This document shows positions 1 through 7,754 of a DNA stretch of 27,145 nt, piece after piece. The notes below the pieces were generated by a model, which saw nothing but the letters and a program-made list of their open reading frames with translations, ran no database searches and was not told the origin of the DNA. Position 1 is the first letter of the stretch. Each line of letters opens with the position of its first letter. The DNA is from Stramenopiles sp. TOSAG23-2 (taxonomy: Eukaryota; Sar), in assembly GCA_900128395.1 (NCBI GenBank), contig LT649422.1:1-27145 (forward strand). The letters run 5' to 3'. The translations under genes were made by a program, and so were the position numbers.

Positions 1-286
1 TATTAACACAGCATGGATTATAATTCCCAATGCTATTCCATTCTAAATCAATAATCATTTTTTATTAGCAGCACATGTTTTTACCAGGTATTTTTTTTTT
101 TATTAAAATGATGATGCACAAAAAAAGAAGATCCACAATCCACAACACAATCAAAAAATATTATATTATTTATCTCTTGAATTAGTCGGAACACACACGA
201 CGCTCAGGAGAGATCTTGAATGAGAACTAAAAACAAATAACATCGAAAACAAAGCAACAAAAAACCAAATCATCCATTCATTGAAC
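1..286 (+). promoter_or_regulatory. 5' flank and leader of the DIS3L2-like gene
   Basis: AT-rich non-coding sequence that becomes a strongly A-rich leader over roughly the last 60 bases before the ATG at 287, as is usual for translated starts in AT-rich protists. I see no complete gene here and no convincing core promoter motif. The window starts inside this intergenic region, so what lies upstream is unknown. Confidence 0.4.
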
Positions 287-3200
287 ATGCGTAATTACAA
301 CAACAACAACAACAGGCGTCGTAATTACAACAACAACAACAACAACAACAACAACAGGCGGCGTAATAAGAAACCATATTTTCCAGCATTTATTTCCTAT
401 GACGAAATGGAGCATGGAATAGAAAAAGGAATGTTGTTTCAAGGCCCTTTGCGAATCAATGGTAAAAATAGGCAACAAGCATTTGTAACCGTTGAAGGTC
501 TTGATATTGATGTATATCTTGATGGAGAAAAATCGAGAAATCGATCTTTAAATTCTGATTTAGTTGTTTTATCTTTTAATAAAGATAAATCTACATGGAA
601 AGAAGTAAACACATTTAATGATAGTGATAAAACGAGCAGTAAAAGTAACAATAACCAAAATAAAATCAATAGCGAATCAGAGCAAAAAGCATTGTGGTGT
701 CCACGTGTTTCCGCTGATGCATCGCAAGCATTTGCACCATATGAAAAACGTAATGGGTTGGAATTAACTACTTTAGCAAAAGAAAAAGTAGCAGAGATTA
801 ATTTATATTGTAAGGAAAAAAATGTACAACCATCTGCAGTAGTAGTTTATATTAAAAAGCGATGCCATTTACCTGGTCATATTGGTGTATTGGAACCAAT
901 AACCAAGGTAGATAATGGCCAACCATTGGCAAGTAAAGATAATTTTGTTAGATTTAAACCTATGGATGTACGGTTTCCATTTATGATGGTACCAAGGTCA
1001 CAAATAAATAAAGAATTTCAAAATAATCCACATCAATTTTCCACAAATCTTTACAAAGTAAATGTAGAAGCAGAGAAATGGAAAGCGGAAAGTCGATTCC
1101 CATTAGGTTCATATGTGTGTACAGTTGGTGAAGCTGGTGATATTGAAACGGAAACTAGGGTTTTATTGGAAGAATTTGGTTTTGCAAGAAGAGGTTTAAA
1201 TGGTGACTTTAGTGAGGATGTACATAGTTGCTTGCGTTCATATCGTTTATTTAAAGAAGGTGATGAAGTGAAACATAAAGATGAATATTATGATACTGGA
1301 TCATCAAAATCAGAATGGAAAATACCAGAGGAAGAATTTCAAAAAAGACGTGATTTAAGAAAAGAACGTATATTCACCATCGATCCAAGCACAGCGAAGG
1401 ATTTAGATGATGCATTGCACGTAACTGATATAGGAAATGGGAGGTATGAAATCGGTGTTCATATTGCAGATGTTAGTTACTTTGTACGACCAGATAATGC
1501 ATTGGATAAAGAAGCATCAATACGCGCGACGACGGTGTATCTTGTTCAAAAATCGTTGCCTATGCTTCCTCGATTGCTTAGTGAAAATTTATGTTCGTTG
1601 AATCCAAATGCAGATCGTTTAGCATATTCATGTATATGGACGATGAATGATAAAGGGGAAATGGTTGATAAGGAGCCATGGTATGGCCGTACTATCATTC
1701 GCACATGTTGTCGATTGGATTATGCAAATGCGCAAGATATGATTGATGATAAAATAAAACCAGCAGATGCATTTGTGAAAGATGATGGTGTGAACAAAGT
1801 GAAATGGCCGGTCAATCGACGTCCGCAAGATGGACACAAACCTGAAGATGTGATAAATGATGTGAAAATCATGCATAAAATTGCAATGGGTAGGAGGCGA
1901 AGACGTTTTGCCAGCGGTTCTTTAGCATTGAATCAAGCTAAATTATGTTTTAAGCGTGATAAAGATGGACGTCCAATAGGTGTATTTACATATCCAATTA
2001 AAGATTCAAATAGATTGGTTGAAGAATATATGCTGTTAGCAAATTATTTAGTAGCGGAGAAATTGATTTTAGGATCAGGTGGTTTAGCACCAATACGAAG
2101 ACATCCAGCACCTCTTAAAAAGAAGTTATATGAATTTACTAATAAAGTCATGCAACGTGGATACCATTTAAATGCTGCGACTGCTGGTGATTTACAAAAA
2201 TCATTAAATGAAGTACAAAAATTTAATTCAGACCCCATGACTGTTACTGCATTAATAAAAATGGCTACGAATCCAATGAAACCTGCTGTATACTTTGCTG
2301 CTGGTACGCTTGCAAAGCAAGAAACGTGGAGACATTATGCATTAAATATACCATATTACACACACTTCACATCTCCAATTCGTCGTTATGCAGACGTCAT
2401 GGTACATCGTGTTTTAACTGCAGTATTGGAAGATAATGTTGATGAATTAGGTCTTTCCGTGTTTGATATTGAAGATGTTTTAGAACATTGCAATGAAAAG
2501 AAAGCAAAATCTAAAGAAGCACAAGATAGATGCGATCAAACTTTTTTTTGTTTATATATACAAGGACGAGATATAATAGCAGAAGCATGTGTTGTTGATT
2601 GGGGGGATAAGTCGTTTGAATTGTTTATACCTGAATATGGTGTAAGTAAACGTGTTCATGTTGATGATTTAAAATGTAAAATGAAAACGAAAGAAGACTC
2701 GTTTGTATTATCACCAAAGGATGATGAAGATAGTGGAAAGAAACATACGAATAATAACAACAACAACAACAACAATAATAAAAAATCGGCGAATGATGAT
2801 AATAATAATAATTCTGCTCCTCCATCGGCACCTACTACGGTAGCAACAAAAACTAAACCACTAGTACCAGATTCAAAGTTAAAAAAATTAGATAGAAATG
2901 AAAAAAATGCTGAAGTAGATCAATTGGATGATGAAATGAGAAAATTAACAGTTTCACAAGCAAATAGTAATTGGGGCAAAAGTGATAATGATATTGCTGC
3001 GTTGCCAAAATTCAAACCTGGTAGTGATATTCCTGTATTTACATTGCCGAATGAATTGACAGGTATCATGGAAGAAGTGCCTGCTGAAATTTTAGGACGT
3101 GCAGTTAAATTTGGTGTCAATGTCATTTATGTACGTGATTTAAATGGGAAAAAAGTTGAAATGATGATACCAAGCATGAATACTTTTGTTGAAGCTCCAA

Positions 3201-3517
3201 ATACAACTAAAAAACAAAACAATAATAAGTTTAATAAAGGTAATGGTAAGGGTAAATATTCAAAAAAGAAAAGTAATAATGTGAAAGGTAGTGCGAAGAG
3301 AAACAATTCTAATTATGGCGATGAAAGTAAAAAAGGTGGTGGTAATCAACGCAATGGAAAAATGGGAGATGGTGTATTAACGGAACCAACAACAATAAAA
3401 ATGTTAAAACGTATGAAAGTACGCCTATACATGATTAAAAGAGTACCAGTTGATTTTGGTGTTGAAATATTAGATATTTATGATTGGGATCCAATCGGAT
3501 ATGGTGGTGAGAAGTAA
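287..3517 (+). CDS. DIS3L2: DIS3L2-like 3'-5' exoribonuclease (RNase II/RNB family)
   Basis: A 1076-residue exoribonuclease expected to degrade RNA 3'-5' in the cytoplasm independently of the exosome; in animals DIS3L2 prefers oligouridylated RNA. Order seen: Asn/Arg-rich tail (1-26), cold-shock-like regions (about 30-105 and 190-310), RNB domain (about 355-720), then an S1-like end interrupted by Asn- and Lys-rich inserts. The catalytic acids are Asp366, Asp372, Asp374 and Asp375, with the same spacing as E. coli RNase II Asp201/207/209/210, and the HFTSPIRRYADVMVHR signature lies near residue 695, so it should be active. No PIN domain precedes the cold-shock region, which favours DIS3L2 over DIS3 or DIS3L1; intact acids argue against Ssd1. 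The frame is open two codons further upstream, but the first ATG is at 287. It is longer than human DIS3L2 (about 885 residues) mainly because of the low-complexity inserts. Single exon, convergent with the next gene. Confidence 0.93.
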   Translation: MRNYNNNNNRRRNYNNNNNNNNNRRRNKKPYFPAFISYDEMEHGIEKGMLFQGPLRINGKNRQQAFVTVEGLDIDVYLDGEKSRNRSLNSDLVVLSFNKDKSTWKEVNTFNDSDKTSSKSNNNQNKINSESEQKALWCPRVSADASQAFAPYEKRNGLELTTLAKEKVAEINLYCKEKNVQPSAVVVYIKKRCHLPGHIGVLEPITKVDNGQPLASKDNFVRFKPMDVRFPFMMVPRSQINKEFQNNPHQFSTNLYKVNVEAEKWKAESRFPLGSYVCTVGEAGDIETETRVLLEEFGFARRGLNGDFSEDVHSCLRSYRLFKEGDEVKHKDEYYDTGSSKSEWKIPEEEFQKRRDLRKERIFTIDPSTAKDLDDALHVTDIGNGRYEIGVHIADVSYFVRPDNALDKEASIRATTVYLVQKSLPMLPRLLSENLCSLNPNADRLAYSCIWTMNDKGEMVDKEPWYGRTIIRTCCRLDYANAQDMIDDKIKPADAFVKDDGVNKVKWPVNRRPQDGHKPEDVINDVKIMHKIAMGRRRRRFASGSLALNQAKLCFKRDKDGRPIGVFTYPIKDSNRLVEEYMLLANYLVAEKLILGSGGLAPIRRHPAPLKKKLYEFTNKVMQRGYHLNAATAGDLQKSLNEVQKFNSDPMTVTALIKMATNPMKPAVYFAAGTLAKQETWRHYALNIPYYTHFTSPIRRYADVMVHRVLTAVLEDNVDELGLSVFDIEDVLEHCNEKKAKSKEAQDRCDQTFFCLYIQGRDIIAEACVVDWGDKSFELFIPEYGVSKRVHVDDLKCKMKTKEDSFVLSPKDDEDSGKKHTNNNNNNNNNNKKSANDDNNNNSAPPSAPTTVATKTKPLVPDSKLKKLDRNEKNAEVDQLDDEMRKLTVSQANSNWGKSDNDIAALPKFKPGSDIPVFTLPNELTGIMEEVPAEILGRAVKFGVNVIYVRDLNGKKVEMMIPSMNTFVEAPNTTKKQNNNKFNKGNGKGKYSKKKSNNVKGSAKRNNSNYGDESKKGGGNQRNGKMGDGVLTEPTTIKMLKRMKVRLYMIKRVPVDFGVEILDIYDWDPIGYGGEK
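298..357 (+). repeat. CAA/AAC trinucleotide repeat in the DIS3L2 N-terminus
   Basis: Two successive copies of a unit encoding Arg-Asn-Tyr, a run of Asn, then Arg-Arg-Arg; the first has 5 Asn and the second 9. The Asn codons are almost all AAC, so the tract is a nearly pure AAC microsatellite inside coding sequence and probably varies in length between strains. A second Asn run (about 2754-2815) lies in the C-terminal part of the same gene. Confidence 0.85.
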
Positions 3518-3643: not shown

Positions 3644-4186
3644 TTACGACATTGGCACTACTTGTGCATTGCTTGTGGGCTGTTGAACAAATATCACAGT
3701 AGGGTCGTTAGGATCAACAAATGCACCATTTGCAATTCCATTATTTGTGACTTCTTGTGCAAATCTTCTACTATCTTGTCTACCACGTTCCATTGACATG
3801 AAAAATATAGGTAAAAAGGTTCCACAACCACCGTTGTTAAAATTAAATTTAAACTTGAAATCAGAGGTTGAACCAACGACAACAGGAGAGCATTTACCAC
3901 TTAAATTATTAGCACCAAATATAGGCTGATTAAATTTTTCTTCTGTAATGTTTGTTATAGGTAACCGGAAAGAGACGAACTGGAGACCACGTTGCGTTGT
4001 AATTTTCTTAGCAACAAAAAATATTGAATGAGAAGTAAGAAATAAAGTGCCATTTCCACTAAATTTACCAGTTTCCTTTGCTTCTACTGAGAAGCTAATT
4101 CCAGCACGTGACAATAAGAACACTTCGTTTGCATCCTCCGGTGTGACTGGGATGCCATTTGACGCGACAGTTGGGTTAAATGCCAT
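3644..4186 (-). CDS. WBP2-like GRAM/PH-fold protein
   Basis: 180 residues, single exon, ATG at 4186. Residues about 20-135 match the GRAM domain of WW-domain-binding protein 2: a GTLFLTSHSIFFVAKK strand region, then a 'QPIFGANNLSGKC' segment very like the 'QPVFGANYIKG' hallmark of WBP2, then a hydrophobic strand ending near MSMERGRQ. In animals WBP2 is an adaptor and transcriptional coactivator that binds WW proteins such as YAP through PPxY motifs. No PPxY is visible here, and the tail after the GRAM domain is short, so only the membrane or protein-binding GRAM module seems conserved. Fungal and protist relatives of this kind are common, and their role is unknown. Convergent with the DIS3L2-like gene. 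Confidence 0.8.
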   Translation of the reverse strand: MAFNPTVASNGIPVTPEDANEVFLLSRAGISFSVEAKETGKFSGNGTLFLTSHSIFFVAKKITTQRGLQFVSFRLPITNITEEKFNQPIFGANNLSGKCSPVVVGSTSDFKFKFNFNNGGCGTFLPIFFMSMERGRQDSRRFAQEVTNNGIANGAFVDPNDPTVIFVQQPTSNAQVVPMS

Positions 4187-4237
4187 TGCGTTGATGTTTT
4201 ACTTCTTCTTCTTTCGTAATCTCAATTTTCATATGTG

Positions 4238-4269
<32 letters not shown>

Positions 4270-5305
4270 AATAAAATAAATGTTAAATGTTGTGCATGCA
4301 ACTAACAACTAAAAACTAAAAAAAATATTATTGGAAAGAGAAAATTAAATTTCCTAAAAAAAACCGACTCTTTTTAAGGAAATTGACTCGGTAGTTTTCC
4401 ATTAATTAAGCCAAATATTTTAGTACCTGTACTATTTGAACAGCCATGGTAATTTACTTTATTTTATGATAAATAAATATTAAGTATATTAATTTAAATA
4501 TTATAATAAATATGTTTTTTGTTTTTATAAATATTTATTATATATATCATATGTATGTATAATATACGTAACAAATGTGATTCCGATGTATTAATTAATA
4601 TATGATATGAACATACTATTGTGTCATTTTAGTCATTAGAAAAACAGATTAAAAGTTTTATAAACATTTTAAACTACAAGTAATAATAGTTCATAATGTA
4701 AGAAAGTTTTATCCTATATAAAAACTTCTATCCACAAATTCTTATTTCTAATCTTTTTTTCGTTGTTGGTGGTTTTTACATGAAACTACGCACCTACATG
4801 ACACTATTTTAACATTATGGCGACAAATGCCAACCACACATTAGTGCATTAGACATCTGCAACATCTCAGGGATCCCATTTATGCAATTAAAGATTACGC
4901 GTCAATAGATTTTTCCTACCTCATATTTTACTTTTAAATTTAACGGTATTGCCGTACTAGTATCATACTTAAAAAAATTTATAAAATAAAATCTTTAATT
5001 TATAAATACCTTGTCAGTACATAAGACGGAAATAAGTGCCTCGAAAAAGTGGGCAGTGGTTGGGATAGGAGTAGGGTTTAATTTAAGTACTACATTAGTG
5101 TACTAATATATGCATATTTGATAGTGAGTTACTGGTATTGCAAAAATCGGATATTCTTAGTAAATTCATCAAAAGAAGTATTGGCTATTTTTGGATTTTT
5201 TGCATTACCAGTACAAAATATTTCTCTATTAAAAAACACCAAACTGGCAAACAAACTACAGTAAAATCCATTAAAAACTACTACTACTAAAAACTTTCTT
5301 ACAAG
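4187..5305. other. AT-rich intergenic region before the GC-rich block
   Basis: About 1.1 kb with no convincing gene. It holds a TA/TG microsatellite (4231-4269) in the 5' leader of the WBP2-like gene and an imperfect inverted repeat (5131-5149 with 5194-5212). At its right end, a tract with a TACTAAA-like branch point and pyrimidines leads to an AG at 5304-5305. No GC-rich coding segment is seen that could be an upstream exon of the oxygenase. Confidence 0.5.
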
Positions 5306-5829
5306 AGAGCTTTGTCGAGAGCGGGAAGAATACTTCGGAAACCTTGACGGTCAAGTCCTGGGAGCTGGCAGACCTGCTGTGGCAACGCTGCGGGCCTTGC
5401 ATTCCTCCGGAGCTGAGGGAGCAGGGGGCTACGGCACTTGTCCCTGGAACTTACCAAGCGCAGTGCATTGTCCCAGTGTTTCGCTTCATGCGCTACAGTG
5501 CAGGGCAGGGCTTTCGGCCTCACCACGACCCAACACGGCTGCTGCGCCGCCATCCCCGAACGCAAGAGAGTGGTACGTATCGTACTCTGGTGACCATTGC
5601 ACTATACCTGAACTCAGGCAACGAGATGGACGGCGGCGCTCTCAGCTTCTTGCGCGCTGCAACGGGGACGAACGGGCGTAAAGGGTTCGAATCCATCGCC
5701 AGCGTTGAGCCGGCCGCCGGACGGGCTGTCATCTTCCCCCACAATCAACTCCACGAGGGCGGCGAGCTGGCGGGTGGCGTGAAGCACATGTGCCAATGCG
5801 ACGTGCTGTACAGGCGGGTCGGGGACTAA
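5306..5829 (+). CDS. 2OG-Fe(II) oxygenase (prolyl-4-hydroxylase-like), 5'-incomplete, GC-rich
   Basis: The frame that ends at TAA 5827-5829 encodes the catalytic double-stranded beta-helix of a P4H-type 2-oxoglutarate/Fe(II) dioxygenase. Counting from TTG 5344 as residue 1, the iron ligands are His60, Asp62 and His137, and Lys147 is placed to bind the 2OG carboxylate. The RYSAGQGFRPHHD and LYLNSGNEMDGGALSF segments are typical of the family, so the active site is complete. What is missing is a start: the frame is open back to 5275, yet its first ATG (5488) lies well inside the domain. Either this is a last exon beginning near 5306 at a candidate splice acceptor, or a 5'-truncated copy. Base use is alien: 65% G+C at 5341-5400 and 67% at 5701-5760, against 27% at 5221-5280 and 18% at 5831-5880, and codons end mostly in G or C. 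Horizontal transfer, recent insertion or an assembly chimera are all possible. The substrate is unknown. Confidence 0.75.
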
Positions 5830-6146
5830 TATATATATTTAGATATATAAAAATTACGAACGTATATTATATTACCAGGTACATATATATATATATTACG
5901 ACGAGTATCTTTATTAAATAATCCAGACCCTTTTGTTTTATTTTTATTTTTATGATATCTTTTTTGATGTGCATGTTTTTTATAATTAAATTTACGCATA
6001 ATTTATTTTTAATTTACTCATGATAATTTATAATATATCAAGAGACATCTGTATGTTTTGTATGATATGTGTGTATTTGTAATAAATATTCAGTTATACA
6101 ATAACCGACATACCATATTTCCTTCTTTTTTATCTTTTTAATTATT
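5830..6146. other. AT-rich 3' intergenic region
   Basis: About 320 bases between the convergent oxygenase and zinc-finger genes. It is AT-rich with short TA runs; I see no gene or RNA. G+C content falls immediately after the oxygenase stop codon. Confidence 0.5.
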
Positions 6147-6926
6147 TTACAATAATATTTCAGTGGAAAAACTTGAAGGGATATCAGGAAATGCAGTTGC
6201 GCCAATACTAATACTGCTGCTACTACTGCCACTATTAATATTATTTTTTTTATCATTTATTCTCTTTCGTTTCTCTAATTTACGTTTAACTATTGGACTT
6301 GCAGAGTTTAATGCGGTAGCCAACATGTTTAAACCATCTTTTTCTACATTATTATTATTATTATCAATGCGATTTGCATTTCGTTTCCTTTTTTTTTTTC
6401 CTTTTTTACTACCAGTTGGAGGAGTTGTTCTATCATCAGATTTATTTTTTTCATTATGTGGATCAGCTATAGTTATGGTTACTTCTTTTCCTCGATAATC
6501 TCTTGGATAAAAATTTACATCTCGTTTACAAGTGCGTTTATGCCTAGATAAACCGGATACATGGGCATACGCGCGTTTACAATATGGACATTTATGTTTC
6601 TTTATAAGTGGTTGCCCTCTACATTTATGTTTAATAAAGTTGCATTGCCATCGAAATACTTTTGCACATTGTGTACATTCCCATCTTTTGTTTTCATGGA
6701 CATTTTGTGTATGTGCTCTTACCATTTCTCTTGATGAAAATGTTTTGCTACAAATCTCACAGGCAAATTTTCTTCCTTGATGCACATTTAAATAGTGCCT
6801 TTTTGCATCACTTTTTTGCGAAAATGTTTTATTACAACCAGGATGTTGGCAAACGGCTCGTTCAACTTGACGTCCACTTATAGGATCTAACATTGTAGTC
6901 AACATAATTGACGTTTTTTTTGGCAT
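6147..6926 (-). CDS. C2H2-type zinc-finger protein, four fingers
   Basis: 259 residues from the ATG at 6926; the frame is open five codons further, but only from a TTG. Four fingers lie at about residues 24-140. Finger 1 is C-x4-C-x12-H-x4-H, finger 2 C-x2-C-x12-H-x4-H, and fingers 3 and 4 end in Cys (H-x-C and H-x3-C), making them C2HC variants. Spacing between fingers is short and regular, as in DNA- or RNA-binding arrays. Two basic clusters (about 175-190 and 215-230) can serve as nuclear localisation signals, separated by an Asn run; the C-terminus is Ser-rich. It is probably a nuclear nucleic-acid-binding protein or transcription factor with unknown targets. I cannot assign an orthologue. 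Single exon. Confidence 0.85.
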   Translation of the reverse strand: MPKKTSIMLTTMLDPISGRQVERAVCQHPGCNKTFSQKSDAKRHYLNVHQGRKFACEICSKTFSSREMVRAHTQNVHENKRWECTQCAKVFRWQCNFIKHKCRGQPLIKKHKCPYCKRAYAHVSGLSRHKRTCKRDVNFYPRDYRGKEVTITIADPHNEKNKSDDRTTPPTGSKKGKKKRKRNANRIDNNNNNVEKDGLNMLATALNSASPIVKRKLEKRKRINDKKNNINSGSSSSSISIGATAFPDIPSSFSTEILL

Positions 6927-7754
6927 GATAATACTAACCAATATATAGTATTTTGATGAAGACTAAGAAAATCACAAAATCACCAATAATAAAAGATTAA
7001 TAATATATATAAACTGTTTGGGGGTGTTGATGAGATGGCACGGAAAATGGTATGGTTATGATGGAGGGCGAAAGCAGCAAGAAGAAACTATACAAATTTC
7101 TTTTTTGTATCCACTTGATCTCACATACACACATATAACGCGCACACGCACACACACACTGATCTCTATTCACACATTCTACTTTTGCTTCTATATTTTT
7201 TCATAAATGAATTCAATAATCCTCCCACTGACCACACCACAATAATCATAAAATACACAGAGTGCACCATGCTATTCACATGCTAAATAGTAATAGTTGG
7301 CAAAGTGAAAAGGGAAGCGAGACGTATCAAAACCAGTGAGAACGTAAAACTGGTTATTCGCAACCTTTTTCCAGCTTTCTTTAATAGCTTTGCACCCCTC
7401 TATTGCACTTTTCCTGGATTTTCCTTAATCCTTTTTCCTAAATCCTTAATATATTCTGTAAAAGTGATAGGAATATGTCGATTAGTGTACTATAAGTGTA
7501 CCAACAGTAGGTAGGATCGACGTCTCCTCGTTTGTAGAACAACCAAAATTATAGAAAATACAAGAGAGATGTGTGTGTGTGTAAGTGTGCATCTGTTTGA
7601 AGAAGGCAAAGAAACGCAAGATATGGAAAAAACAAGGAGAGAAGTAATAGTATAAGAAGAAGAAGAAGAAGACAAAACTATATATACGGAGAGATTAACT
7701 CTGTCTCTCACACATACGCATACGTATATATGTATATATATAGAGAGAGCTCAA
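6927..7754. promoter_or_regulatory. Divergent promoter region (zinc-finger gene / POP4)
   Basis: About 830 bases between two genes transcribed away from each other, so it should hold both promoters. It contains CA/AC-rich simple sequence near 7126-7159, GT repeats near 7569-7582, and AGA-rich then TA-rich sequence just before the POP4 ATG. Short ORFs here look like chance. I see no specific factor site. Confidence 0.45.

Follow-up and report, generated by a model that had tools for sequence, protein, structure and literature searches.

A GC-rich 3′ fragment of a foreign prolyl 4-hydroxylase-like gene within a MAST-4-like contig: technical chimera or recent insertion?

The described systems closest to the locus reported here are the solved prolyl 4-hydroxylases (P4Hs) and the foreign DNA encountered in single-cell protist genomes. 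The P4Hs of Chlamydomonas (2jij), Pseudomonas putida (4j25) and a chlorovirus (vCPH, 5c5t) were recovered as Foldseek matches to our predicted models, but with 13-21% identity in those alignments and a high rmsd, and no sequence-level match was found in the PDB for either the fragment or the family profile. One study (PMC5778133) reports that some single MAST-4 cells contained nuclear DNA from photosynthetic eukaryotes and describes microalgae as ingestible by MAST-4, and another (PMC8163842) counts chimeric assemblies among the limitations of single-cell genomics. The present locus resembles such prey or contaminant DNA in that apparently foreign eukaryotic DNA accompanies MAST-4 cells (compare the relevant passages of PMC5778133), but differs in that the foreign piece lies inside a host contig rather than on a separate one.

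We analyzed a window of 27,145 nucleotides (the whole stretch of DNA under study, constituting an entire contig, C189, of a 17.45-Mb assembly with 793 contigs), in which the 3′ portion of a foreign gene adjoins, in the assembly, MAST-4-like host sequence on both sides. The best three-segment maximum-likelihood fit over 4199-6146 placed a composition island at 5305-5826, with edge intervals within 2 lnL of 5298-5321 on the left and 5823-5828 on the right, and outperformed a one-segment model by 119 log units. The G+C content was 62% in the island, compared with 26% in the left flank (4199-5304) and 19% in the right flank (5827-6146). The first-pass annotation had described a GC-rich oxygenase island of about 65% G+C with abrupt edges and had proposed a comparison with the codon use of the genome's own genes. 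The island proved to be real and its edges sharp, with small corrections to their positions; its GC-richness was upheld at the measured 62% rather than at 65%, and its codon use likewise set it apart, with a GC3 of 0.71 in the island frame vs 0.18-0.35 in 12 host frames chosen from the window.

Patterns of consecutive G/C bases served as a weak detector of further islands: with a longest run of 12, the island itself would escape those requiring 13-14 in a row. A 13-G/C pattern occurred at 24 places in the assembly, and among those loci a 300-bp window of ~60% G+C was present solely on contig C442, the next richest window (0.56) being an RG-rich stretch on C114. A second pattern yielded 486 matches per strand, one of them in the island, with the places listed reaching C21. 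Six GC-rich places sampled from this second pattern displayed a GC3 of 0.22-0.29 in five cases, taking the presumed coding frame, and no clear frame in the sixth.

The oxygenase fragment resides in a forward-strand frame that is open from stop to stop (5275-5829) and is preceded by an in-frame TAA at 5272. The first in-frame ATG, at 5488, lies well within the homologous region, and the fragment itself (5302-5829, 175 codons plus the stop, forward strand) contains neither a stop nor a frame break. The island matched the 2OG-Fe(II) oxygenase profile PF13640 with 46.4 bits against a cut-off of 27 (E 8e-12). An HHD motif at 5521-5529 contains what we take, from the HxD...H...K pattern, to be the iron ligands His (5521-5523) and Asp (5527-5529), followed at 5752-5784 by the presumed distal His (5752-5754) and, 10 residues further on, Lys (5782-5784). 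All four residues were identical in 20 of 20 rows of an alignment (A6) that excluded P0017, P0018, P0019 and P0143, and the island carries the HxD...H arrangement and putative 2OG-binding lysine of a P4H-like oxygenase. The earlier description of a stop-to-stop frame, of intact His/Asp/His/Lys active-site residues (in their presumed roles) and of the absence of an in-frame start ahead of the homologous part was thus borne out. The P4H-like domain that it had proposed is supported by the profile and by the catalytic residues, but not as a complete domain, since homology begins at codon 5302 and the part upstream of the catalytic core is absent.

A protein search and a tree, both of which the first-pass annotation had suggested, placed the island within a family of oxygenases. 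The first protein search returned 19 matches, 14 of which are proteins of 296-308 residues with 73-84% identity to the island. A profile search, in which 7991 candidates sharing most words were scored, also returned 19 matches, with P0140, P0141, P0142 and P0143 as new members. P0140 (327 residues) is the closest full-length relative, being identical to the island at 171 of 175 positions over its residues 153-327, from codon 5302 to the last residue, and the match ends where the base composition changes. Over the shared part, P0001-P0014 and P0140 are 73.7-97.7% identical to the island and have the HHD...H...K residues in common with it; they differ in that all 15 possess 123-152 residues upstream of the point at which the island starts. 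In a 22-row tree, the island grouped with P0140 and P0015 with 100/100 support; 11 of the 19 inner branches were drawn open, so that the rest of the tree says little. By sequence identity, the island is distant from the PF13640-type frames native to the host.

Apart from P0142 (EukProt), a distant relative with 30% identity to P0001, the 23 proteins obtained from both searches carry the source labels lgn, ena or jgi; P0141, labelled lgn, is also a distant relative. These labels probably denote environmental sequence from uncultured eukaryotes. The island represents the last 175 codons of a GC-rich prolyl 4-hydroxylase-like gene of another organism, with P0140 as its intact relative, and we consider the donor likely to have been a eukaryote. 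No relative was confirmed in viral contigs (two conserved peptides, 24 pattern matches, tblastn) or in bacterial and archaeal GTDB genome contigs (two conserved peptides, 172 pattern matches, tblastn), searches in which distant relatives could be missed, nor in phage records searched by tblastn with P0001. A viral, bacterial/archaeal or phage donor was rejected, since none of the three collections yielded a confirmed relative with these peptide and tblastn queries.

Four shorter matches, P0015-P0018 (113-138 residues), also lack the upstream part. P0015 starts at the residue equivalent to the first in-frame Met of the island and is located on a 583-bp contig, indicating that comparable short open frames exist elsewhere; the shortness of these four proteins may reflect contig ends, introns or real truncation. 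P0018, on a 42-kb contig, starts inside the same domain and lacks the distal motif, and in our own reading its letters, set against those of P0009, look frame-shifted in the region of that motif. This protein could represent another truncated copy, carried by a different genome, and a possible parallel to the island.

Residues 1-152 of P0140 have no counterpart in the island. The missing upstream half was not found in the assembly with the relative P0002 as the query. Its residues from 127 onward aligned with the island and with the corresponding position in contig C259; the query also met a weak oxygenase on C133 and a sequence on C196 (E 1.23), the C196 match being the one other match to touch the upstream half. 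The model predicted for P0140 (mean pLDDT 77.5, 17 sequences) places strands 74-80 and 88-93, along with helices between residues 98 and 149, ahead of the junction, and these elements presumably form the N-terminal part of the P4H fold. On the predicted model and this presumed place in the fold, the island would lack the N-terminal strands and helices of a complete P4H-like fold. The fragment alone was predicted with a mean pLDDT of 73.8. Foldseek matches to the full-length P0140 model were led by prolyl 4-hydroxylases with a best E of 1.1e-7, compared with 1.1e-5 for the fragment model, a difference that provides a weak argument since E-values also depend on length. The TM scores normalised by query were modest, at 0.25-0.38 for the full-length model (50 rows) and 0.35-0.51 for the fragment (first 15 rows), so that by TM the fragment does not fit worse, and the argument for a broken fold derives from the missing elements rather than from Foldseek scores. 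With neither a start codon nor the N-terminal part, the island is not a complete and expressible gene; as judged from its sequence, it is not a gene but a truncated 3′ piece of a foreign gene.

On the left of the island, a reverse-strand host frame (3644-4198) with a GRAM match below the curated cut-off is followed by a dispersed host repeat with inverted arms, resembling a MITE (5006-5233). A query with the left flank (4690-5310) against the host's own genome yielded 55 matches, 2 of them self, mostly within this repeat, the arms of which occur in inverted order in other genome copies. The adjoining AT-rich stretch (5234-5301), at the end of which the left junction lies, had no match elsewhere in the genome search and no homology to the oxygenase family. 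On the right, sequence and composition fit delineate an AT-rich flank (5830-5972) that begins with a TA-rich run from the stop codon and leads to a dispersed host motif of ~48-56 bp (5973-6028), to which most of the 46 matches (2 self) of a right-flank query (5827-6180) belong, 40 of 130 candidates having been scored. Beyond it lies a reverse-strand host frame (6147-6962) with a C2H2 zinc-finger profile match. The presence of host repeats to the left and right of the island indicates host DNA on both sides; the spacers between these repeats and the island, of 68 (left) and about 120-143 bases (right), may contain the true junctions. Six of the 46 matches to the right-flank motif were <100 bp from a contig's first base. 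A search for an empty site, in which the flanks were joined in a script and compared with 13 repeat loci, gave short, mostly AT-rich matches only.

The identity of the host was approached through a Dis3L2-like frame (251-3514), for which, among the best 120 of 4263 matches, the relatives include P0020 (99%), P0021 (82%, on a 23.7-kb contig) and P0024 (55%), labelled Stramenopile-MAST_4 in EukProt; from this one protein, the host would appear to be MAST-4 or close to it. The assembly is probably of single-cell or metagenomic origin. The MAST-4 entries in Table 1 of PMC5778133 have final sizes of 28.4-32.8 Mbp. Contig C259 (23,231 bases) matches the window without a single difference over 22,747 bases from base 1, then diverges, and carries the same island. 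We take this identity to reflect the same assembly path and a redundant contig, and C259 was rejected as independent support for the island. Elsewhere in the assembly, C26 (L025 1500-2940) contains poly-G, an N gap and a long cgaacgtg satellite. Two loci read on C442 (L044 1-3013, L045 1-3013) have about 48% G+C. The frames of this contig comprise an Oxa1/Alb3-type protein, an AP2 protein and one whose fucosyltransferase match falls below threshold, and C442 possibly derives from a contaminating alga or from prey.

We infer that a technical chimera of amplification or assembly is the most likely origin of the island, with a probability of roughly 0.5. In this scenario, a GC-rich organism, co-sampled or ingested, would have had its DNA amplified, sequenced or assembled along with that of the host; a chimeric molecule or a path in the assembly graph would have linked the foreign piece to the host contig where the sequence is AT-rich and of low complexity, leaving a fragment that would have no function in this organism. 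This origin is favored by the near-identity to an intact protein within a well-supported clade of three, by the loss of homology at the composition edge, and by the absence of a start codon and of 152 residues, this upstream part not being recovered from the assembly by the P0002 query. The open frame and high GC3 are also as expected had the fragment never lived in this genome; its composition is presumed to be unchanged. The assembly displays features that permit such errors (the contigs sharing 22,747 identical bases, the N gap beside poly-G and the alga-like C442), in keeping with the passages on foreign DNA in MAST-4 cells (PMC5778133) and on chimeric single-cell assemblies (PMC8163842); against this, 17.45 Mb is unlike the published MAST-4 entries, and a single-cell or metagenomic origin is our presumption. 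Moreover, a simple chimera has one junction, whereas here two joins are needed, with host DNA on both sides in an ungapped contig. Both joins are intergenic, and on the right the island ends no more than a few bases from the stop codon, as a random break would by our own estimate do about 1 time in 100, an argument that weakens if the donor's own 3′ flank was AT-rich. A contig that continues ungapped into host DNA at either end of the island, an intergenic location in which the frames of both neighbors stay open, and a right edge at the stop codon argue instead for a genuine recent insertion, to which we attach substantial weight, short of even odds. Ingested foreign DNA would have been captured, for example where intergenic DNA next to a repeat had suffered a double-strand break, and would now be a young non-coding fragment without a start codon. 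The intact active-site codons and the lack of a stop fit a very young event, and ingestion of microalgae by MAST-4 is described in passages of PMC5778133. Set against insertion are the search for an empty site, which gave none for comparison, the shared assembly path of C259, and a protein identity of ~98% to a database protein, exactly the level expected of foreign DNA that had never integrated. The order of chimera and insertion would flip for a reader giving more weight to the improbability of two joins. The first-pass annotation had envisaged a recent transfer, a truncated insertion or an assembly chimera, with a gene caught just after transfer if the case were real; the foreign and truncated nature of the island is supported by its 171/175 match to full-length P0140, but a gene so caught is not supported, the fragment lacking 152 residues and a start codon.

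The intact catalytic residues in an open frame, together with the ctttcttacaag before 5306 that resembles a splice acceptor, might also suggest a functional acquired gene or captured last exon, in which a host promoter and an upstream host exon would give rise to a fusion product whose oxygenase domain is functional. We consider this very unlikely. Neither the window nor, with P0002 as the query, the assembly yielded an upstream exon of the family (the C196 match having E 1.23), and the last exon of a foreign-like gene, which had also been put forward earlier, was rejected on this ground. The left neighbor gene lies on the opposite strand, the predicted strands and helices of P0140 (74-149) fall upstream of the junction, and the Foldseek E-values, weak as that argument is, point in the same direction. 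A native gene of unusual composition is the least probable origin that we considered. Frames of PF13640 type do occur in the host itself, on C133 and C19 (the latter with 20.3 bits, below the cut-off of 27), but they share 36% and 35% identity, respectively, with the island and have a locus G+C content of 29% and 31%, and the GC3 of the GC-rich places sampled elsewhere also stands against a native origin. This origin was rejected as disfavored by composition and by low identity to the host paralogues.

If the island is a chimera, it serves as a warning that foreign fragments inside host-like contigs can escape contig-level contamination filters. The 'you are what you eat' idea concerns the entry of foreign DNA into grazer genomes. 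The island could tentatively represent a eukaryote-to-eukaryote capture nearly at the moment of the event, in which a phagotrophic stramenopile would have taken up a 525-bp gene fragment of another plankton eukaryote at an intergenic site by a mobile-type repeat, before visible decay or change of composition. If insertion is true, the locus would show foreign DNA that has entered the genome of a grazer and is still almost unaltered, and the first step of that idea would become testable at one locus. Our analysis also brings to light an oxygenase family whose close members bear the source labels lgn, ena and jgi alone.
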